The position numbers and the translations under genes are program-made. Under the pieces are notes generated by a model that ran no database searches, was not told where the DNA came from, and saw only the letters and a program-made list of their open reading frames with translations. From Undaria pinnatifida (Eukaryota; Sar; Phaeophyceae; Laminariales; Alariaceae): a DNA stretch of 64,000 bases. Of this stretch, positions 43,701-64,000 are shown piece by piece (within the stretch, counting starts at the first letter, position 1; the number at the start of each line of letters is the position of its first letter). The stretch lies in assembly GCA_012845835.1 (NCBI GenBank), contig JABAKD010000029.1:3506844-3570843 (forward strand). Direction: 5' to 3'.

Positions 43701-45489
43701 GGAAGGGGGGTATCTCCTCCGCCGAGAGTGGAAATTAACTGCGCCGACATTATTGGAGGCAAACTGCCTGCAATGAATGAAGGACATATTTCACGGCAGT
43801 TGAGTTAATAGTGGTATGAATACACTAAACTTAACCACCCTGGTCTGTGTGTTCTGTGCAGGAAGAAAGCCGAGAATTTTGCCAATCGCATTCTCCATCA
43901 AGGTGGCGACGGGCACACAGTAGAAGGCATAGAGGGTACGAACACTGGCACAGATACTGAGCTTAACCGCGGGGGGCATTTTGCGGTCCGCGAACAAGAC
44001 AATGCCGAACCGGCCTACACGCCACAGCAAGCAGACAGCCCTACCGAGAGCAGGTCGCCGCCCTCGCGGACCGTATACGGCTGCGACACGTCCCCTTTGG
44101 CTGACATGGATTTGCTCAAAAACGCACGGCAGTTAGCCCAGGCGGAGGCAGAGGCAAGCGGAACTGGTAAGCGTGCTAAAACACCCTCGCGGAAAGCATT
44201 AGAGGCGTCGGGGGTGGCCGGAGTAGTTCAGGATGCGCCGCAGCACATGACCAAGGAAATGAGGAACGCGAGTACGAAAACTACCTCGTCGCGGATGGCG
44301 AATCAGAGGCCAGGGTTAAAAGAGAATTGTGTGCGGGACTTTTTTGCAGGCCACGGGACCAATGATGTCGTCGGAAACGGCGGGTTTCTAGGAAGGTTTG
44401 GAGGCAGTGGGTTTAGTAGGGTTCGTGATGTTAGCGAGGAGGTGTCGCCCTGCGTGGGGGAGATATTGGAAGAGTATCTGGAGCAACGTCGGCAGCATGT
44501 GCAGGAACATCAGCAGCAAAAAGAGCAGCAACAGCAGGAACTGCAGGAACAGGAACACGATCAGCAACAACAGCAAAAGCAGCCGCAACACCAACGGCAA
44601 CAGCGACAGCAACCGAAAAGACAGTGTCAACAACAGCAGCATCATAAAAGTTCCGTTCTACAAAGGTCTCCTCAACCGCAGTCCTCATTCGGCGAAACTG
44701 GGGTGTTCAGTACCTCCAATCCCCGCCCAGGTCACGCTCCCAACAGGGGTACAGACAGTTCAATCGCCGATAAAACTCCCAATACCAAGAAACAGCGGGG
44801 TGAAGTGCCCGGAAAAAATGGAAAAAGGAAGGCTAATAAAAACGCCACTTGTGGGCTTAAAAACAACAGTGGCGGGCTTAACATCAATACTGGTGGACTA
44901 AAAATCAGCAATGGCATGCTTAAAAACACCTGTGACGAGTTTCAGAACGAACAAAATAATGAAGACGCAGGTGCCACGAAGATCGTCACACCGTGCGCGT
45001 TTGATGAGTGCAAGGCAGCGGCTACATACGGCGTCAACAACATCGTCCGCTACTGGTACGTTGTGTTTAGGCGTTTAATTACCTCGACTGGGGCGTCGCT
45101 TGCACGATCAACGAAGGCAATTTCTGTCGTGTTATTGTGTTGTCACCCAAACGATATCAATATGAAAAGTACAAGTCGTTTTCGTACGGCTTGCTTCATA
45201 CGGTCTACAGTCTCTGCCTCAGATATCCCATTGCCGATAGACCAAATGGTATTCCTAGGGCTTGCGTGGGTTGATTGTGTTTACATGCGGCGTCACCATA
45301 TGCGTCTCGAACGTCGACTCCGGCAGCTTCCTCCACCCAACGAACAACGGCATGCTGGATATTGTTCGAGTAGCTCTTTTAAGAAAAAAAGTGACAAACT
45401 GATTTCCCCTGGGCCCGTCCATGTGCGTTTTCTTACCTCCCGTTTTCAGTAAGAACCACCGTCTGTTCGGCATGTACAAGATCCCCTAA
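36579..45489 (+). CDS. EsV-1-7 domain protein with tandem exons and Gln-rich linker
   Basis: Modelled exons are 36579-36716, 36914-37051, 37257-37394, 37599-37736, 38099-38167, 39781-39865, 40919-41044, 43862-45055 and 45450-45489. All have AG/GT borders and consistent phases. The first four each encode a 46-residue Ser/Thr/Pro-rich repeat (LATKQGACAVQSPAGPGD). Three EsV-1-7 domains follow. The first is RCEFPGC...LCFKH, the second CIHRGCNVQPHYG...YCANHKGDGM, and the third CAFDECKAAATYG...YCKNHRLFGM just before the stop. Between domains two and three is a ~400-residue linker with an Ala-rich helix and a long Gln/His-rich coiled coil (about 44480-44640). Cys/His spacing is preserved across three spliced junctions, which supports the joins. 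No start codon was identified; it may lie at 35.8-36.4 kb or be the ATG at 29442. Confidence 0.68.
38299..38423 (+). CDS. Alternative terminal exon with basic tail
   Basis: After an acceptor at 38298 (GGTCAGGACAG) a frame in phase with the exon ending at 38167 runs to a TGA at 38421-38423. It contains LSAVSC, which restores C-x4-C-x15-C spacing but has Pro where the domain His should be, and a basic tail RLKRKAQRTLPAEKRAR that could be a nuclear signal. Splicing 38167 to 39781 gives a better domain, so this is listed as an alternative end. Confidence 0.3.
39206..39454. mobile_element. MITE-like element, GCTACGATAGAGGT family (copy 2)
   Basis: Left end GTGCTACGACAGAGGTAGCA and right end TGCACCTCTACCTTAGGATG are inverted repeats; about 249 bp, inside an intron of the EsV-1-7 gene. 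Confidence 0.62.
39498..39604 (+). other. Alternative exon-like frame before an EsV-1-7 exon
   Basis: A plus-strand frame after the AG at about 39497 reads toward YPASLGSPG and ends at G|GTTTAG in phase 1, so it could splice to 39781. It would replace the C-x4-C part of the domain with Arg residues, so the join 38167-39781 is preferred. Confidence 0.25.
40363..40437 (-). repeat. tRNA-like sequence, degenerate
   Basis: On the minus strand an A-box-like TGGTCTAGCGGTTA lies about 45 bp before a B-box-like GGGTTCGAATA. Neither the acceptor nor the T stem pairs properly, so this is a tRNA pseudogene or SINE head rather than a working tRNA. It lies in an EsV-1-7 intron. Confidence 0.45.
41718..41985 (+). 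mobile_element. CAGCTG-type element in EsV-1-7 intron
   Basis: Matches 27025-27330 over its length: CCAGCTGTGAGATCGAAGAT at the left, GGTCAACAGGGTGATGTTA inside and GGGGGACAAAATCTTACGGC at the right. Confidence 0.7.
42000..42115. mobile_element. Half MITE, GCTACGATAGAGGT family
   Basis: Only one end is present: GGTGCTACCTCTATCGTAGC at about 42089-42110, preceded by sequence matching the inner part of 49378-49686 in reverse. Confidence 0.55.
42208..42577. mobile_element. Dispersed repeat next to a poly-G run (copy 2)
   Basis: Matches 23157-23480, again with a G run (13-14 G) at its left edge. A second G run of about 18 lies at 42559-42576. Confidence 0.6.
42762..43040. mobile_element. MITE-like element with CTCTATAGTGCGG end (copy 2)
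   Basis: Partner of 34637-34895. Edges are CTCTATATAGTGCGGGAGGG and CCTAGCGTGGGATGACTC. Confidence 0.5.
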
Positions 45490-53507: not shown

Positions 53508-56500
53508 ATGATGAGGAAGCCGCCCGTCTTTGTGTTGTCGCTGATACTGCTATCGTTGGCGGGAAAAGTCGCAGGGTTTTTCCCTGGTGGTGGTATTATT
53601 ACCCGTAACAGATATGGCACATCAGGAGCAACAACATCAACATCAGCAACACCATCAGCAGCAGGAGCAGTAGCATCAGGAGCAGGAGCAGCAGCAGGCA
53701 CCGCATCGGGGGCAGGAGCTTCGAAACGGGCGAGTACTGCTGTCTATGCTTCCACTGCAGCTGCTGCCGCATCGTCGGATAACCCTGCTGCTACTGCTGT
53801 TGGTGCTGCTGTGGTAGTTTCTTTCGGGCTGACGCTCGAGGAGAGGCTGGCGGCAAAGGAAGCTGTCTTTCGAAGAGGGCACCTGTTTCCGCTTGGAATG
53901 GAAATGCTTGACGCCACCGCCAGCGCGGGTACTCTCAGAGAGGTATGCTATTGTACGGCTGATAACTGAGATACAGCAGCAGTAGCTTACACGGGGGTGG
54001 GTGGGTGGGTGGGTGGGTGGGTGCCTCGTCCTATTGTGTTGGTGTGCAGGCAAGACAAGGGACGCCTGTGTTTCGATGTCTACTGCTACCAATGGGAGTG
54101 GACCACTGCCCGCGGGGGTGTTCTGACGGAAGTATGGAATACGACTGAGATTCAGTAGCAGCAATAGCAGCAGATTGATGATGATGATGATGATGATGAT
54201 GTTCTCGCATGGGCTTTTTTTCTTGGAATCTATTTATTGGCCGTGATTGAGACGGGGTACTCTGCGGGAGGTACTGGTGTGGGATACGACTGGGACACGT
54301 ACAGCAGCAGCTTGATGGCGATGATATCGCATTACTGCCATACTGCAGCTCATTTCCCTGAGATGTAGCTTGTAGTTGGACGCGGGTGGATGCTTGTTAC
54401 CTTGTTGTGGGCGTGCAGGACCATCTGGATGAGATGTCGTATATACAGAGAGCACGCCCAGCAGCACCGATCACCATCCGCTCCGCAACAACGCGAGTAC
54501 CGACTACGAGTAGTACTATACATGCAGGACGATTGGATCCATAGTCTAGACGACCAAAAGGATTTAGCAAATGGTCTTGCTTTTTTGCATTTTCACTGGG
54601 CGCATCCTCCATTCATGGTGTGTCATGCCCCTTAACATCAGTAGGATATCATACTGCAGGTGTACCACCACCGGTACATATGTGACGTCGCGATCGCGAA
54701 GGCTCTTTTTCCCTGCATTGGTTGGAATATATATAGTCTATATCGCACTACGCTGTGCTATGGCGTCATAGCACTAATGCCTTCAAATCATCATTTTTTC
54801 GCACAGCAGGGGGCGCCGGACTGCGGACCCGTTTAGACTGCACCAACAGTAGTAGCAGTGTCCATCGTCTATCGCGTGCTCGTATGTTGCATACCGCTCT
54901 TTGGATAAATACAAATACCTCAGCTGTGAATTTTGTGCGTTGATTGTGTCTTGAGGTTTTTCGAGGACAGCCAGCTTGATACATGTAGACCAATGACGGA
55001 GCGCTTTGGGTGAACTACACGTACTGGACAGATATCAACAAACTGCAAACGTTTCCAATGCCGTTCCAAAACACACGCATACCAAGCGCATCCACGTACC
55101 GCTCGCTGCTTCACCCTCGTTAGGCGGTGCTGAGTTCCGAATGCCACCCTGGAAACCTCAACCCTGTTTTTTTTCGTCTATGTGTGTCTGTACTAATTGT
55201 CTCGACGTTCTTTCAACCCAACGACATTTTTCTTCTTCGTTAGGCTGTACTGAGTGCGGCAACGACATCGACGACGACGGAGAGCGCGACAAACCAGGAG
55301 CGGGTTGGCGGGTCGGACCTCCCGCTGCAGAACGCGTTCTTGGAACCCCGCGGTTTTATGCCAAAGCTGCTGTTGGTCCTGTCTGCGGTGCCTAGCGTCC
55401 GCAGCAGCGACAGCAGCGATGCGGCACCCGACGGCGAGAGCTCGCAGTCATTGCTCTTGTCGGTGATGGAGGCGCTGGACGCTTGCGAGGCGGTGCCACC
55501 TGCGATCGTCTGCTGTCCGTCCCCATCGGGTTCGAGGAGACACAGCCAACGGGGTGGTGGAGACAGGTGGGGTTTTATTTGTTTCGGAATTGGGGTTCTC
55601 GTGCGCTCCTCCTCCGTCATTTGCTGTGCCACCACGCAGGGCAGGAGCCCAGCGCGGCCGCGTGCAGAATTATTTAGGAAAAACAGTAAGGTTTGGAGTG
55701 CTTGCTGGATTACGGTCGCGTTGGTAGTCTTGGGTGGCAAAGACCGGAAACACCGGCGGTAATTTGTTTCAATTTTTAATGTCGGTTGCTGGAGCTCTCT
55801 GCCGAGCAAGCCATCGTCTTGTCGGAAGCGGTAGTGTGTCAGGGTTCTACCTTTTTTGCTTTTTCAGCGATAACTTTTCCCCCCTGATTGCTAGGGAGCC
55901 ATTTTAAGAGGTTTTCCCTGTGTCCTCTTGTTGAGATGGGGCCGTCCGCGGCACCTCCGATTATGCAGTCATGGACCTATCCCACTGTGTGGTTCGCTCG
56001 ATTTCGTTAGCCATGGAGGATTATTGCAGCCTTCGAAAGCTTGCGGAACAACCTTTTCCTACCTAGCCGCCTCCGCGAATCGATATCCCTCTTACGGTTT
56101 GGTCCTCTACCATGCCTGCTGTTGGTGGGCGTGGCGGAGGGAGCGCTTCAAGACAAGTGGCACCGCTCTCGATTAGGCCCTCCCTCGATTTTTTCATCGT
56201 GTTTTGTAACAACTGACAAAGAAGCCTCAGCTGTGTTTGTGGATAAGATTTTGTTTTTCACCGGCGTATCCCACACTTGGTCGGTGTGTGTGCTTTTCCC
56301 CCCATTCTTCGGTCGGAATGCCTCGCCCGAACAGCTCCCGAGGTCTCCAAGAACTCCTCGACGAGTTCGAACCCGCGCTGCTGGACACCCAGCTGGCGGA
56401 CCTTTGGAGGCAGGAGGCGAAGCACCATTTCGAGTGAGTGACGCTCGTGGTCGGCCTTATTGTCTTTTTTTTGCCTCGATGTACGCGCATGTGTGAGTTT

Positions 56501-59500
56501 CAGGAAGCGTATCTGTCGCGGCTTGCCCTCCGAGTACATGGCATCGCTTTTTAATTGCTTGTTTTTTTCCCGACTCACGCGGGAAACTAGAGCTGGGAAA
56601 CGACACCACGGGCAAACGCGCTGCACTTTTCCAATTATGGCGTGTTCATTGCTGTTGTTACAAGTTATCTTCCTTTAGGACCCGGGTAATTGTAACCAAA
56701 TAAATGACCGTCGAGTGAGCGCGATACTCTTCAAGCATCCAGGAAGAGCTATCAGGATGTGAGCGTGCAGGGGTACACGAGCGTCGCCATCACCCTTCGC
56801 GCGTTTGTGCCGTACAAGCAGCCCGTTTGCATTGTTGCAGGCTCAGGCACGTCCCCTACCGTTAAAATCCAGGTTGCCCCGTGTGGCCGATGCTAAAACC
56901 ACACTGTAGTTTACGTACGACACGTCTTTTCGTTTCACGCGTGATACGATAGAGGTCGCGCACTCTTTTTTAGGCTGGATTTTTTTTTTCTGGGTGACGG
57001 GCTCTTCATCCGGAAAAAAAATCGTCGGAGAAAAAAAAGAAAAAAACATTCATAACAATTATTTTCGTTGTGTACCTACCGTCTCGCCATTGGGTTGCTC
57101 ATTGGGTGGCAAAATAGAGCTCCTCAAGTGAAGCGCCTCAGAAGGAAAATAGGACACATCTACCAAGTAATGTGCCCGTTCAAACCCTGAAGGGGCAAAT
57201 AGGTTTGTGTGGGATCGGCCAGCATCCATTCCGCTCTTATGGTTGGGTTGCTTTATGTTTGTCCCCTGGTGGCGCTTGATGGCAGGACACAGTGGTGCCT
57301 ATTCAAGTCGGCGTCGAAAATTGTTTTTCGTGTTTTGGAACGGTCCGCCCCCATCGCCGCGCCTCGAGAGACCTCTAGTGCGGGTTAAATTATTTCGTGC
57401 CCCCCCTCTCCACCCCCGCTTCCTGTTATCCTGTGCCACGTCGCTATTTGGTGTAAAGCTATCACCAAACCATGTTGTTAATAGGAGACCGCACTTTTAT
57501 GTGTGTGCTCAGCAGCAAACCCCCTCTGCCGATCAACAGCTTAGACCACCACACCAGGAGTACACGTACAAATATAGGCGAGTGGGGTGCAAAACGCCTC
57601 GCCCGCCCCGCTAATCTGGTATTAATTTGTTTCCGTTGTTGACCCGAAACTCAGCAAAAATGGACTGGCCGCGCCGTTGAGGACACACGAGACGGCCTGG
57701 ACCCCTTTCGAGCAAGAGCCAAAAGTCGCTCTCAACCTGGAGCTGGATGGGGCTTGGGTCGATTCGTCAGCGTCGCCGGGGGGACGGCGGTGGGACACGA
57801 GCAAGGTGAATGGTGGTCGCGGAAAATCGTATCCCCTTGTGCAATCAAGCACCTCGGCGTGTGTTGTTCTTTCGAGCTGCTCTATTAATAGGTTGTGGGG
57901 CAGGGCCTTTCTCTACAGGGCTGCGTTTCTCTGCGGCATGTTTTTCCCCCTGCATTTGCGTGGCCGAGTGGTGTCAAGCTTTTTTTCGTGTGTGTATTTT
58001 CCACGGAGCGGGAGGAAACCGTGAATTGTATCCCAACCGGCGTTTCCTTGGCAAGGCGCTAGCAAATTTCAAACCAATACATGAACAGCAGGGTGGCGGT
58101 TCTGGCATCTCTAGAAGAACCTCTTCTCGTGATGGAAACCGACCACGGGCAGCCCTCCCTCCCTCCCTCCCTCCCTCCCTCCCTCCCTCCCTCCCTACCT
58201 ACCTACCTACCTACCTCTCACTCTCAGATCGTGGTACTCGACGGACTCGTGGACGAAAAACTTTCAAAAGACTTACTCGACTTGGTCACGGAACCAGGGT
58301 GGGCAACCTCACGAGAGGCGGGAGACGGAACAAACAGCAAACAACCGTCGCCCCGAAAGGCGCCGCCGTTGTCCAAGTGGGAGCGCGGGTTGTCTGACGT
58401 CGAGTCGGACACGACCGCGCCGGGGGGGAGGGGGGCCGGCGCCGGGAGCTGGGGTCTAACGAACGACGGCATGGAGTGGCTGTGCCGGGAGGGAAAACAT
58501 CCGGCCGTCGTAGAGGTGGGAGGGTTTGGGGCGCGGGAGAGAGAGACAATCGACCCGATTTTTTTCGTATTTTTGCCAGTTCCGGGAACCAGGTACTGGT
58601 CTGTCTTGACCCTTTCAGAACTGCAGGCGCATTTATTTCGGGGCGAAACACTTGGGAATTAGTGTGCGATGACTATTTCAGTGGGAGCAAAACAGGGAGT
58701 TGGTTGTTCTTTACCAGCGTGTCTTAAGGATTCATTCTAAATTATTTGTTTTGCCTGTAATTCTTGAGGGCCTGATGCGGACCCAACCGATGCAGGTGGC
58801 TGGTGGGTGTGCCTCATAGCATTCGGTGTTGGGAGTTATACTATATTTTGTTCGGTGGGGGGCAGGGGGTTCGACTCGGGGGGCTTGCTTTGGTGAACGG
58901 GGAACCATTTCCGACGCCCGAAACCCCCAAAGAACGTGGAGAGTATAAAATGGGGGGAAATGTGCGTTACTTCGCTACCCTGTTTATGCTTAGGTCTCCC
59001 TTCTCGGGCATTCCGTACCGATCACGACCTTACTCGGTTCGTGTTGCGCCGCCCCGCAGTGTGTGCAGAAGCTAATTATGGCGTCCTCGTGTTTTTGTGA
59101 CTGCTGTCCCTGGCTCAGCGTGTACTAGGAGTCCTACGTGGTGACACATATAATCACGCTCTTTTACTGAACTGAAACAGCATCTGGGGGAAGAAGAGAA
59201 TAATTGCAAGCATTCCAACCAAACCACAAGCAGGTATCGTTTTTGAAAACAGTGCCGTAAAATGTAACGCTCTTGCTGTCAGAAGTCGATGGAGAGGGTT
59301 TGACCGGTGCTGCCGGTTGATGCTACACGGTGACATAAAATTGAGAAGTATTATTAGGAATCGGGAATCGATAAGAATAGTATGTTGTTTGTTGTTCATA
59401 AGAGAGAATTCGGCGTTATGGTTCATAGTTTATTTTGGCAGAGTACGTACGTAGCTTACTTTGACAGCAGCAGCTGGGATTGTTTGGTTGATCGCGCTTG

Positions 59501-62500
59501 TGGAGATATCAAGTGGATACCGCACGGGACGGTGCTGGCAGATTGCTAGAACACGCGAACAGACAGAGCTGTTGTTTACAACTGGACAGCGGTCGCTCAA
59601 TGGACCAGATAATTCGTGATTTCTCCCGCCCACCCACTCTTTTTCTTTCGATGGTGAGGGAACGGAGATATTATGAGGATGTAGATACTATTATCGTATA
59701 ACTGAGGGTATATGTACTTATTTCCTTTTTTTTGCTTTAGTGGCATGCGAGGGTTTATATCACGATATATAGTTTCTCGGAGAAGTTGTGTGGAGGAGTC
59801 AACGGTATTGGACCATTCGGTGTCCTAGTCGTCCGAGAATTCGCACAGTAGAACCCAGACAGTGGAGGGAGGGAGATGTGTTTATGAGCAAAGACATGTG
59901 GGTATGAGGCAGAGTTGGATACTGTGGTAGACATGTCAGTCAGCTGCTCTCCCTCCCAAGCCACAGAAAATGATAATATACCACGCAATTCGAACGATAT
60001 ATACAACAAATAGCACGATTTACGCATGCAGCGTTCGGAATCGCTCCTTTATATATGTATACTGTATACACATGTTGCCGGTCTCTGAAGCAGCCGCCTG
60101 TAGCACTGACTGCTGTCGTTGGCTCAGCGTATCTTGAGGTACTACACGGCAACATAATTAAACAACACCCATTTTAACTGAATAAGCAGCGCTCGGGATC
60201 ACTCCCTCAAATGCGCAGGTGCAGTCCAGACTGTGCAAGCTCTATCCGGACTTCGAGATCTCTCATATGCCGGAAGCTGTCCTCGGCGCCAGCACGCCTC
60301 GTATGGTGGCGAACGCTCCGGTATATGGAGATCATTTTTCGTGGCACGTGGATGCGGATCCGGCAGTGCTTCCCCCCTCGCCTTGGCGGGATTACTTCGG
60401 GACATACACCAACAGGTGCGTGAGAAAGGGACGGTGTCGCCTTTACCGCCGTCCGTGGCGTACCGTGGCGTACGGGCTACTCGGGTGGTGTTGTTATTAT
60501 AGTGGTGTTGGTGTTGGTGGTTTGGTTGATATTGGTGTTAGTGTTGGTGTTGGTGTTGGTGTTTGGTGTTGGTGGTGTTGGTGGTGGTGATGGTGTTAGT
60601 GTTGATGTTCGTGTTTGTGGTGTTGGTGTTGGTGGCGTTGCTGGTGATGTTTTTGGTGTTTTGGTGGGCGGAATAGGGGTGGGGGAACCGGTGTTCTCAC
60701 CGTAGCCTTTGTCGCGCACGCCGAATGTGTTTTTCGCACCCCACACGCTAACAAGGTGCAGGAAACGTTTTCGGTTTCGGCGCGTCGAGGGAACCATTTG
60801 AACAACCATAAAGTGTGTCGCGACCGTGCTTGTGGCACAATTGCGACGAGCGGGCTGTGTGCAGCATCAACCATCACCCACGTGTCGAGGTCGTGTGCCC
60901 CATCAACCATTTGTGTCGATCCAACACCGTGTGGTGGCATAGGCCCCCAGGAAGACGTCGTAAAGCGACTGCTTTGGAGGTGTGCTGCTGTGCAGGGGGT
61001 GGTCTATGGTTTTTCCGCCTTGTCTAGTATGTTTCGCACCGGGCGCCAAAGTTTGTCTAGTCGGATAAACCGGGAGGTACCCGGTAATGTTATACCCCCT
61101 GATGAAAAAACTTCCTCGCGAAAGTTTCCGCGCACAGATCTTGAATGCGGCTAACCGCAGGGATTAGCGGCGTTGCTCGTCCCGTGCCGTCTGCCCGAGG
61201 GAGTGTGTTCCGATCATGCGAGCCGCCGGGGGGGACATCCGAACGCCCTGTTCGGCTAGCTTGTATTTCCGCGGGCGGGGAAGTGGTCGCTCCCCTTAAC
61301 CCGTTTGCCATTGCAAACAGTATCGCGGTCTATCACCGATGGTGTTTTTCCATGAACGTGGGAGCGCTTCCATGGCTAACGATATCGGTTGACGGCAGTG
61401 TTTCCCCTTTGCCGGACAGTCAGCCGTCAAGACACGCCCAGCTCTAAAACTAGAATAGTAAGTCTAACGAGGCCTGGACAGGCGTCAACTCTAGACCGGC
61501 AACCAGACATGTTTTTTTGCAGGAAGGTTAACCCATTCCCGCCTTCCTCGACTCACCCTACCGCACCGAAACCGCGGAAAGCCCGGCATGCCGCTGCTTT
61601 CAACCCTGGTGATAGATAGATATCTCCACGCCGAGTGCCCCCCCTGTATAACCCTTTGCCTTTTTTTTTTTGCAGTCTAATGGCAAGTGCTTTGTCGTTT
61701 TGTCGCCTAAATACGGGTTGCACTTCTCACGAGTTTAATCATTCCCGCATAACCCCGTTTCCACACGTGGAAGTGTGGTGAGCTTAGGTTTTGTTTTCTC
61801 CATCCGCCGAAGGATACAAAAAAACAAATCCCACCGTAAACAAAGGTGTTTTTTCGGTCTATAAATCCATTTTTTTTTTTTCTTTTTCGTGCCCTAAACC
61901 CTAGTGCACTCGCAGATGAAGTTGTTAACCATTTTTATCCCCAAACCCGATTCCGCAGAGAACACGGCATGCCGCTGTTCACCACCCTTCTGATATATCT
62001 CGATGCTGAGTGGCGAAGGGAGTGGGACGCCGAGACGCTCTTCCTCGACGCACCGACGGGCACGGGGGTGTTTGTGCGGCCGCGGGGCGGGCGGGCGGTA
62101 ATGATGGACCAGGACGTGACGCACCGCATCTCTACCCCGTCTCAGGTGACGTGAGCGCTTGAGTATCTGCACGCCGCTCGGTCAGCAGTACTTTCTTGTT
62201 TTGGTTTAATAGATTTCTCATCTCGTGAGCCGCGCCCAGCACGCGCCGATGTCAATGCCGCAACCCGATCCAGAATTCTCCTCCATAATGTGCGGTAACA
62301 CTAGTCGCACGCGCGCCCCCTGCTCGTCCCCCCTTACCCCCCCTCCCGCGCGCGCGCGTCCGCACGGAACGCCCTTTACAGACCGCGGCAAGACCACGGT
62401 ATAGTCTTGTGTGGAAGCTGGTGTTCTTCCCTCGGTCGCACAGCCGACATGCTCGGCAGAGCATGGGCACGGAATCGTCGACCACTCCTCCCGCCGCCGC

Positions 62501-64000
62501 CGCCGCCGCCGCCGCCTCCGCCGCCGCTGCAAGCGACGGCGGCAGTGACACCGAAAGCCCATCGATCGCCCTCCCTGGATGGGGAGAATCCGTGCGGTTT
62601 GGATCGACACAGGGGGCCCGCTCGCCACGCCACGAGGAGCACGACGACGACCACGACCCCCCACCACCACCACCACCACCACCGCCCGGCTCTTCGATGA
62701 CGTCTCCCCCACCCGTCGACCGAAAAAACGAGCTAAACGGAGGGGATTCGTCGCGGACTGCGTCTGACGTTGGCAGCAACGGAGAGAATGCTGAAGCTCT
62801 TGCGGGGTGGGTGGAAAGTGACTGTGACGGGGAAGGGGCGTCGGGGTTGCCCCCTGCGGTCGAGGATCCGCCCATGGTGGAGGTAAAGCCGGTGGGGGCC
62901 AAGGGGATGGGACTGTTTGCTGCCAGGTGGGTGGGTGAGTGGGTGGGTGGGTGGGTGGATGGGTGGGTCGTTGGGTGCGTGATTGGGTAGGTGGGTGGGT
63001 GTGTAGGTGCGTCGGTGAGTGGATGGGTAAGGGTAGGTGGGTGGACGGGTAATGGGTAGGTGGGTGGGTGGGAGTGGTTGGGTGGGTGGCTGGGTAGGTG
63101 GGTGGGTGAGTGGGTGGGTGGGTGGGTGGGTGGGTAGGTGGGTGGGTGAGTGGGTGGGTAGGTGGGCGAATGGGTAAGGCGTAGGTGGTTGGATGGGAGG
63201 GGTAGATGGGTGGGTGGGTAAAGAGTAGGCGAGTGGGTGGGCGAGGAGTAGGTGAGTGGATGGGTAGGGTTTTAGGGATTGGTGCGTTTGCCGTCCGCCT
63301 TTCGTAGCGGTTGACATTGGGAGTTTTGCTGGGTCGCGGGCGAAGAATTTGGGTAGGAGGGTTCAGCGGAGGAGCTGTTGTTGTTGTTGCTGCTAACGGG
63401 GTGAGTCGATTCTCGTCTGTGTTCGCTGAGGTGATGCCGATCGAAGCAAAGCCATATCAATGAGCTCTTGTTATTTTCTCGAGCTGCTTTAAAGCGCGGT
63501 GCTCGCCTGATCGATGAAACCCCACGTGCTCTATCCCGACATTGCCGGTATGCGAGGGTATGGTCAGGGATGCGAAGTTCTATAATATTAAGGCGACAAC
63601 CATACATGACAATGAATACTACCCCCCCCCCTCCCCCCCGCGCGCGCGCCCCCCTTCTGCCTGGTCGGTGAAAACCCGACGTGCTCCGTCCCGGCATAGT
63701 AGGGATGAGAGGGTCTGTCATATGACCATGGCCATGCACAAACTGAGCACACCCCCCCCGCGCGCCCCCCCCCGCTTCCTCCCCCCTCACACTTGTTTTT
63801 TCTTGGTTCGCAGCCCCATTCCGGAGGGTGTGGTTGTTGGTTTTTACACCGGGGAAGCCTTATCAACCTCCGATCTCGACGCCAGATATCCCGACTTCGA
63901 GGGGTCGGAATACGTGATGCAGGTCGGTCCTGACCGATACCTGGACGCGCGAGATCCCGAGCAGTCGGGCATCACCAGGCGAGAGAGACGCGTTGGACAG
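53508..64000 (+). CDS. 2OG-Fe(II) dioxygenase fused to a SET domain (3' end beyond window)
   Basis: Modelled exons are 53508-53942, 55244-55566, 56335-56433, 56743-56872, 57516-57565, 57655-57805, 58228-58515, 60219-60415, 61959-62145, 62382-62926 and 63814 to the edge; all phases agree (864 codons so far). Residues 1-24 form a signal sequence ending VAG-FF, followed by an Ala/Ser/Thr-rich region. The oxygenase (2OG-FeII_Oxy_3 type) includes IVVLDGLVDEKLSKDLLDLV, the iron ligands His535 and Asp537 in GDHFSWHVDADP, ETLFLDAP, His613 in DQDVTHRIS, and a likely 2-oxoglutarate Arg (626) in RPRYSLVWKL. The same exon continues through poly-Ala and poly-Pro linkers into a SET start, GAKGMGLFAA, then GVVVGFYTGE, RYPDFEGSEYVM and YLDARDP. 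The catalytic SET motifs lie past the edge. The 50-nt exon is the least certain. Substrate unknown. Confidence 0.8.
53994..54200 (+). repeat. (GGGT)n and (GAT)n microsatellites in intron 1
   Basis: A GGGT run of about 28 bp at 53994-54021 and a GAT run at 54175-54200 lie in the first intron of the oxygenase-SET gene. The rest of this 1.3-kb intron shows no other gene. Confidence 0.8.
56936..57190. mobile_element. MITE-like element, GCTACGATAGAGGT family (copy 4)
   Basis: Left end GCGTGATACGATAGAGGTCG; right end near 57170 GGACACATCTACCAAGTAAT is a weak inverted match. It lies in the intron between the exons ending at 56872 and starting at 57516. Confidence 0.45.
58151..58217 (+). repeat. (CCCT)n/(ACCT)n run forming the polypyrimidine tract of an exon
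   Basis: A CCCT run passes into an ACCT run and ends 10 bp before the acceptor CTCTCAG at 58227, so the microsatellite itself supplies the pyrimidine tract for the exon that begins the oxygenase domain. Confidence 0.75.
60490..60665 (+). repeat. (GGTGTT)n minisatellite in intron
   Basis: About 175 bp of imperfect GGTGTT/GGTGGT repeats lie in the intron that separates the HxD exon from the distal-His exon. Confidence 0.8.
61527..61636 (+). pseudogene. Relic duplicate of the distal-His exon
   Basis: This segment matches about 61924-62013 of the functional exon region: TTAACC at the start, CGGCATGCCGCTG at the exon start, then a diverged ATATCTC and GCCGAG. The acceptor CCGCAG of the functional copy is CCGCGG here and the frame is broken, so it cannot be spliced in. 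The stretch covering the iron-binding His is not duplicated. Confidence 0.6.
62927..63265 (+). repeat. GGTGGGTG minisatellite in the SET-domain intron
   Basis: About 335 bp of imperfect GGGT/GGTGAGT repeats start at the donor itself (AG|GTGGGTGGGTGAGT) of the exon ending at 62926. The transcript strand is G-rich throughout and could form G-quadruplexes. Confidence 0.8.

Follow-up and report, generated by a model that had tools for sequence, protein, structure and literature searches.

A 2-oxoglutarate (2OG)-dependent oxygenase joined to a SET methyltransferase domain in one polypeptide is in print: as a SET+JmjC protein in the stramenopile Phaeodactylum tricornutum, where the transcript was detected by polymerase chain reaction (authors' data not shown), and as a JmjC-SET protein in Neurospora crassa (PMC3145265). 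In the table of that study, the SET+JmjC row holds one gene identifier and reads “not found” for both remaining genomes; the Esi identifiers mark the last of them as Ectocarpus (PMC3145265). Here we describe a gene of the brown alga Undaria pinnatifida whose predicted product shares with these proteins the presence of both domains in one chain and, with the Neurospora protein, the order, oxygenase then SET. The difference lies in the oxygenase: the published fusions carry JmjC, which belongs to the demethylase class, whereas here the 2OG-FeII_Oxy_3 model (PF13640) alone matched. The gene begins in a window of 64,000 nucleotides (the whole stretch of DNA analysed, bases 3,506,844-3,570,843 of contig 36 in a 511-Mb eukaryotic assembly of 68 contigs) and was traced past the window edge using 20 kb from base 3,570,001 onward.

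Joining a 2OG oxygenase to a SET domain is already known; what is new here is the predicted 2OG-FeII_Oxy_3 class of the oxygenase, the putatively zinc-free SET domain and the presequence-like start. An earlier, sequence-only reading of the window had regarded the architecture as one that it could not name. That statement has to be narrowed, since fusions of this kind are in print (PMC3145265), and what is left of it is that those use another oxygenase class. Literature searches, with most subscription journals outside their reach, found no PF13640 member with a SET partner. Our preferred reading, to which we give a probability of roughly 0.5, is that one gene in the nucleus specifies a protein-modifying enzyme with two heads acting as cooperating writers, which would follow a secretory or plastid route if exon 1 of the gene model is right.

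The two predicted domains meet in one exon

The gene is modelled with 12 exons that run from 53508 to about 65866 in window coordinates and encode a 932-residue protein ending at a TGA stop, with phases consistent throughout (Table 1). Exon boundaries are predicted from splice-site letters, frame and homology. Ten of the 11 introns are GT-AG, and the one after exon 10 is GC-AG.

The fusion is real at the level of the sequence, where both catalytic motif sets are present and the two domains share an exon. This exon, exon 9 (62382-62926), holds an open frame of 181 codons flanked by the letters TTACAG and GTGGGT, begins with TAARPRYSLVWKL and finishes with GAKGMGLFAA. Within it, a single frame runs from the final oxygenase strand and its arginine, through an acidic linker of low complexity (about 140 residues, net charge -15), to the first motif of the SET domain. 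Openness by itself is weak evidence here: this frame also stayed open in 66 of 2000 dinucleotide shuffles, and at least one forward frame did so in 183 of 2000. Codon usage in the frame is better evidence.

Codon usage was learned from other genes of the same genome (1921 codons in 23 segments), and each exon was scored against 1000 equally long intron stretches of the same gene, with the best frame of each stretch counted. The training drew on 23 of 38 loci (L010-L047) and left out near-identical LHC copies (L011-L017), pieces of an LHC cluster (L025-L029), the gene itself (L035) and two stop-containing loci (L037, L046). None of the 1000 intron stretches reached the score of the fusion exon, and for exons 2-12 the score was reached by 0 to 11 of them. 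The claim of the sequence-only reading that the end of the oxygenase and the start of the SET domain lie in one uninterrupted exon is confirmed by the sequence.

The intron that follows the fusion exon opens with a long imperfect GGGT/GGTG repeat (62927-63270). Two antisense frames, 412 and 339 codons long, run across the fusion exon and this repeat-rich intron, and call for caution in trusting open frames there.

The oxygenase and SET domains

The iron and 2OG set of the oxygenase is complete, with H521 and D523 in an HVD motif, H599 in a DVTHR motif, and the arginines R610 and R612. These ligand roles are assigned by position and by the layout of the superfamily, with R610 or R612 as the candidate 2OG arginine. 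The HxD...H...R layout and the Pfam core match are shared with prolyl/lysyl hydroxylase-like PF13640 proteins. Against a cut-off of 27, PF13640 scored 24.0 bits on the full protein, 27.0 bits on a 243-residue region and 29.6 bits (E = 1.4e-6) on a 117-residue core, and it was the only oxygenase model to match in the Pfam scans. No JmjC model matched in three Pfam scans (E up to 1 or 10, with the HMMER filters dropping most matches above about 0.1). An NCBIfam match to the FlmC-family 2OG-Fe(II) oxygenases (33.6 bits, E = 3.9e-8; cut-off 240) is taken only as a sign of the superfamily. The oxygenase is probably a protein hydroxylase, a reaction predicted from its family.

A “DNA endonuclease V” label from a PHROG match (26 bits) covers the iron-ligand core, finds agreement in no other library and was not taken as a function; a Myc_N match in the N-terminal part (E = 0.27) is weak and was ignored. 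Among solved structures, no sequence relative of the 243-residue region was found up to E = 10. No relatives of the oxygenase were reported in viral contigs (searched with 247 residues), prokaryote genomes (117 residues) or plasmids (residues 1-625); these single-protein pattern scans detect close relatives only, and the three collections are without algae, which leaves them silent on algal orthologues. In the same genome, a search with the oxygenase gave four matches, all to this gene, with a few best candidates scored, such that distant paralogues may escape. A six-frame PF13640 search of the genome pointed to four other places and missed this gene, whose domain is split over exons.

For the SET domain, PF00856 scored 60.4 bits (E = 2.6e-16; cut-off 22.4) over residues 781-897, covering profile positions 1-105 of 105. 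Its catalytic motifs are kept as GMGLFAA (GxG), RYINHS ((R/F)xxNHS) and EELTFDY (ELxxDY). Past the window edge, RYINHS and GEELTFDYGEEYF were found, the former depending on the GC-AG donor. Much of what the sequence-only reading had said of the two domains is borne out: the HxD...H set and candidate 2OG arginine that it described are present, the SET search that it proposed on the spliced protein gave a match far above the cut-off, and beyond the window edge, where it had treated missing catalytic motifs as a ground for abandoning the fusion, exon 11 holds both RYINHS and GEELTFDYGEE.

The GC donor of exon 10 yields SGITRYINHS, and all five aligned bacterial SET proteins have an arginine before Y(I/M/L)NHS. 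An alternative GT donor at window position 64000, 21 bases downstream, is in frame and inserts seven residues, RERRVGQ, just ahead of the catalytic motif. In the introns that flank exon 11 lie degenerate partial copies of its start and end (window-equivalent 64285-64319 and 65007-65033; 77% and 85% identical), which read by eye as RINHKGQP in one and GELTFDYGEG in the other. A duplication of the exon at this site may have left them behind.

The bacterial proteins came from a search of a prokaryote genome collection with the SET part, in which 65 pattern stretches led to five confirmed loci, all in metagenome-assembled genomes of Moraniibacteriota, Paceibacterota or Parcubacteria. These small standalone SET proteins of Patescibacteria (L051-L055) are the closest genomic relatives reached, 31-37% identical to the algal protein where the SET parts align. 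Four of the five carry the block GEEL(T/S)FDYGEEYF, and the fifth carries GDELTFDYGEEYF. Across this protein and the five, 31 columns are invariant, many of them catalytic (GxGLFA, RYxNHS, ELxFDYGEEYF). The bacterial proteins differ in being 131-166 residues long, with NHSC and a cysteine-rich tail, whereas the algal protein has NHSG and no cysteine in its last 164 residues. Inspection by eye of the listed open reading frames of at least 90 residues near the bacterial loci, with no profile scan made, recognised no oxygenase. In viral contigs, a scan of the kind that detects close relatives only gave none for the SET part. In the algal genome it gave two matches, both to this gene, under the same scoring of a few best candidates as for the oxygenase, so that distant paralogues may escape; matches to SET pieces in the genome numbered 14, this gene included.

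There is no cysteine in residues 769-932, the last 164 of the protein, and hence no zinc post-SET site. This separates the protein from the zinc-bearing histone SET enzymes of the SUV39/EHMT type, which have a cysteine-rich post-SET region. SETD7 and the Rubisco methyltransferase are also without such a region (PMC7764450), and the Rubisco LSMT/SETD6 class resembles the algal protein as a group of zinc-free SET enzymes, RLSMT being a plastid enzyme (PMC7764450). The Rubis-subs-bind domain (PF09273) of that class is missing from the Pfam matches of this protein; it has three matches elsewhere in the genome. Among solved structures, the SET part was best matched by LegAS4-like chains, EHMT1/2, KMT2C/D and SETD2, and a match to AnkI/LegAS4 (39.1 bits against a cut-off of 550) was used only as a sign of the superfamily. 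We infer that one mRNA joins all exons and that both heads are active.

Table 1. Exons of the modelled gene and a further open frame of the window, in window coordinates
Feature	Position	Strand	Content
Exon 1 (tentative)	53508..53942	+	MMRKPPVFVLSLILLSLAGKVAG then FFPGG; signal-peptide-like, then transit-peptide-like
Exon 2	55244..55566	+	No recognised domain
Exon 3	56335..56433	+	No recognised domain
Exon 4	56743..56880	+	No recognised domain; both splice sites selected so that the phase is preserved
Exon 5	57655..57805	+	No recognised domain
Exon 6	58228..58515	+	IVVLDGLVDEKLSKDLLDLV...; presumed N-terminal part of the oxygenase (precedes the Pfam match)
Exon 7	60219..60415	+	Oxygenase; metal ligands H521 (60345-60347) and D523 (60351-60353); PF13640 match from residue 514
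Exon 8	61959..62145	+	Oxygenase; distal metal ligand H599 (62122-62124)
Exon 9 (fusion)	62382..62926	+	RPRYSLVWKL strand with R610/R612 (62391, 62397); acidic linker; GMGLFAA from 62904
Exon 10	63814..63978	+	Middle of SET, IPEGVVVGFYTGE ... DRYLDARDPEQSGIT; GC-AG donor
Exon 11	64654-64821 (window-equivalent, past window)	+	RYINHSGQPN ... GEELTFDYGEE
Exon 12	65764-65866 (window-equivalent, past window)	+	YFDGEDE... stop
Open frame	43812-45449	+	546 codons; glutamine-rich runs

The N-terminus and competing readings

In the modelled protein, MMRKPPVFVLSLILLSLAGKVAG is followed by a putative cleavage site, VAG/FFP, which puts F at +1 and P at +3. The 52 residues that start at this F (FFPGGG...) include no D or E, four K or R and 14 S or T. 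Heterokont plastid proteins begin with a signal peptide, have an ASAFAP-like motif whose F stands at +1, and continue with a transit peptide in which hydroxylated residues abound and acidic residues are scarce (PMC2567999, PMC4329603). Similar starts are found in the same genome in PsbO (SVEA/FAP) and in one LHC protein (ASA/FVP); most LHC copies start in an exon outside the resolved pieces. LHC genes gave 61 matching pieces in the assembly, among them a cluster of gene pieces on contig 27 at about 1.40-1.52 Mb, several of which are near-identical where translated (L024-L028). Resemblance of the N-terminus to an ochrophyte plastid presequence is weakly supported by these features, and plastid targeting, given a real fusion, is a tentative suggestion that falls somewhat short of an even chance.

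Several observations weigh against our preferred reading. Exon 1 is without codon-usage support, with 133 of the 1000 intron stretches reaching its score and its frame scoring lowest of its three, and the presequence may therefore be wrong or belong to another gene. The exon is repetitive, which makes the test worth less and does not rescue the exon thereby. An in-frame ATG lies upstream of the modelled start. Nor is the presequence pattern very uncommon by chance: a loose form of it occurs in six of 340 ATG-open frames in 83 kb (five of them distinct, with P at +3 in two of the five); among the five, this frame alone is without acidic residues in the 40 residues from F. The PsbO and LHC starts cited above came from a script that demanded the motif (22 loci, L010-L031) and that also returned a frame in L018 with no clear presequence, which makes them examples and gives no control rate. 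Poorer training sets were less favourable to other exons as well. Training on LHC genes only left exons 1, 2, 4, 5 and 11 under the 95% intron level, with the frame of exon 2 not the best of its three; training on exons 6-12 of this gene, with some segments from the wrong strand, made the frame of exon 1 the best of three, yet left it under the 95% intron level, as it did exon 4. Towards the other end of the gene, the donor of exon 10 is non-canonical, the GC-AG intron being needed for the conserved R-Y-I-N-H-S spacing, and together with the part-copies of exon 11 in its flanking introns this means that splicing there may be untidy. Finally, the PF13640 search put forward by the sequence-only reading gave a divided answer, the core lying above the cut-off of 27 and the full protein, at 24.0 bits, below that curated threshold.

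The gene could instead encode a nuclear chromatin enzyme whose SET domain methylates histone lysines and whose oxygenase reads or removes marks, a role proposed for the SET+JmjC proteins of diatoms and Neurospora; exon 1 would then be misread or foreign. We regard this as unlikely, if credible. Exon 1 is the weakest exon, EHMT1/2, KMT2C/D and SETD2 are among the best structure matches of the SET part, SET+JmjC fusions are reported from Phaeodactylum and Neurospora (PMC3145265), and two SET families are specific to the brown algal lineage (PMC13076208). The domain content points the other way, with neither a JmjC nor a chromatin reader domain matched in the Pfam scans, and a cysteine-free last 164 residues that leave no post-SET zinc site. 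The signal-peptide-like N-terminus, on which the sequence-only reading was silent, also suggests something other than a simple chromatin role, if exon 1 is real.

That same N-terminus would suit an enzyme of the endoplasmic reticulum or Golgi with secreted or cell-wall proteins as substrates for both hydroxylation and methylation, in a chemistry like that of silaffin. The epsilon-N,N,N-trimethyl-delta-hydroxylysine of diatom silaffin combines both chemistries on one lysine and is a stramenopile precedent (PMC3820600). A purely secretory enzyme is nonetheless distinctly unlikely: F at +1 and a 52-residue stretch free of acidic residues are more in keeping with a plastid transit peptide, and silaffins belong to diatoms, whereas the host here is a brown alga. 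It is very improbable that the locus consists of two genes, with halves transcribed separately and ending or starting inside exon 9, or of a non-functional chimera with at least one dead head. Methionines between the halves (MGTESS... and MVEVKPVG, the latter just ahead of the SET motif), low-complexity runs in exon 9, the GC donor at exon 10 and the intronic part-copies of exon 11 would be in keeping with such a locus; against it, both domain ends lie in one exon and one frame with coding-like codon usage, and the recognised catalytic motifs are retained in both halves.

A proposed enzyme and its candidate substrates

In the two-writer enzyme that we prefer, an Fe(II)/2OG head of the 2OG-FeII_Oxy_3 type would hydroxylate a residue of a protein, and a zinc-free SET head would methylate a lysine either on that protein or on one next to it. 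With the flexible acidic linker of roughly 140 residues between them, both heads could gain access to a single client protein or complex. Provided that exon 1 is right, the N-terminus would route the enzyme to the secretory pathway and perhaps onward to the plastid, where its substrate would probably be a non-histone protein. Both this location and a substrate shared by the two heads are inferred.

The sequence-only reading had proposed that the two heads act on one substrate in a sequential or an opposing manner. The match to PF13640, and not to JmjC, makes two cooperating writers likelier than a writer paired with an eraser, which is disfavoured because it needs a demethylase-class oxygenase, of which there is no sign in the three Pfam scans. 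The opposing half of that proposal thus loses ground, and sequential or cooperative modification may apply.

Both chemistries are found on a plastid protein of diatoms. In structures of diatom Rubisco, the large subunit has hydroxylated Pro48, Pro155, Leu174, Lys150 and Lys198 together with trimethyl-Lys346, not each in every species (PMC9833100), and the section of that paper on diatom Rubisco modifications names no enzymes that make them. These hydroxylations and the trimethyl-lysine make Rubisco a testable, unproven candidate substrate. A plastid-imported hydroxylase-methyltransferase that would install part of the hydroxylation and trimethylation pattern of a red-type plastid protein, with the Rubisco large subunit as first candidate, is a long shot. 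A search of the assembly for rbcL gave no match. The three Rubis-subs-bind matches elsewhere in the genome, the mark of the classical Rubisco-methyltransferase class, are candidate competitors for plastid lysine methylation.

Were the joined protein to be produced, a single enzyme would couple hydroxylation, which draws on O2, Fe and 2-oxoglutarate, to lysine methylation, which draws on S-adenosylmethionine, with a possible plastid address. The gene would then offer a concrete candidate for the enzymes behind diatom-type Rubisco modifications.

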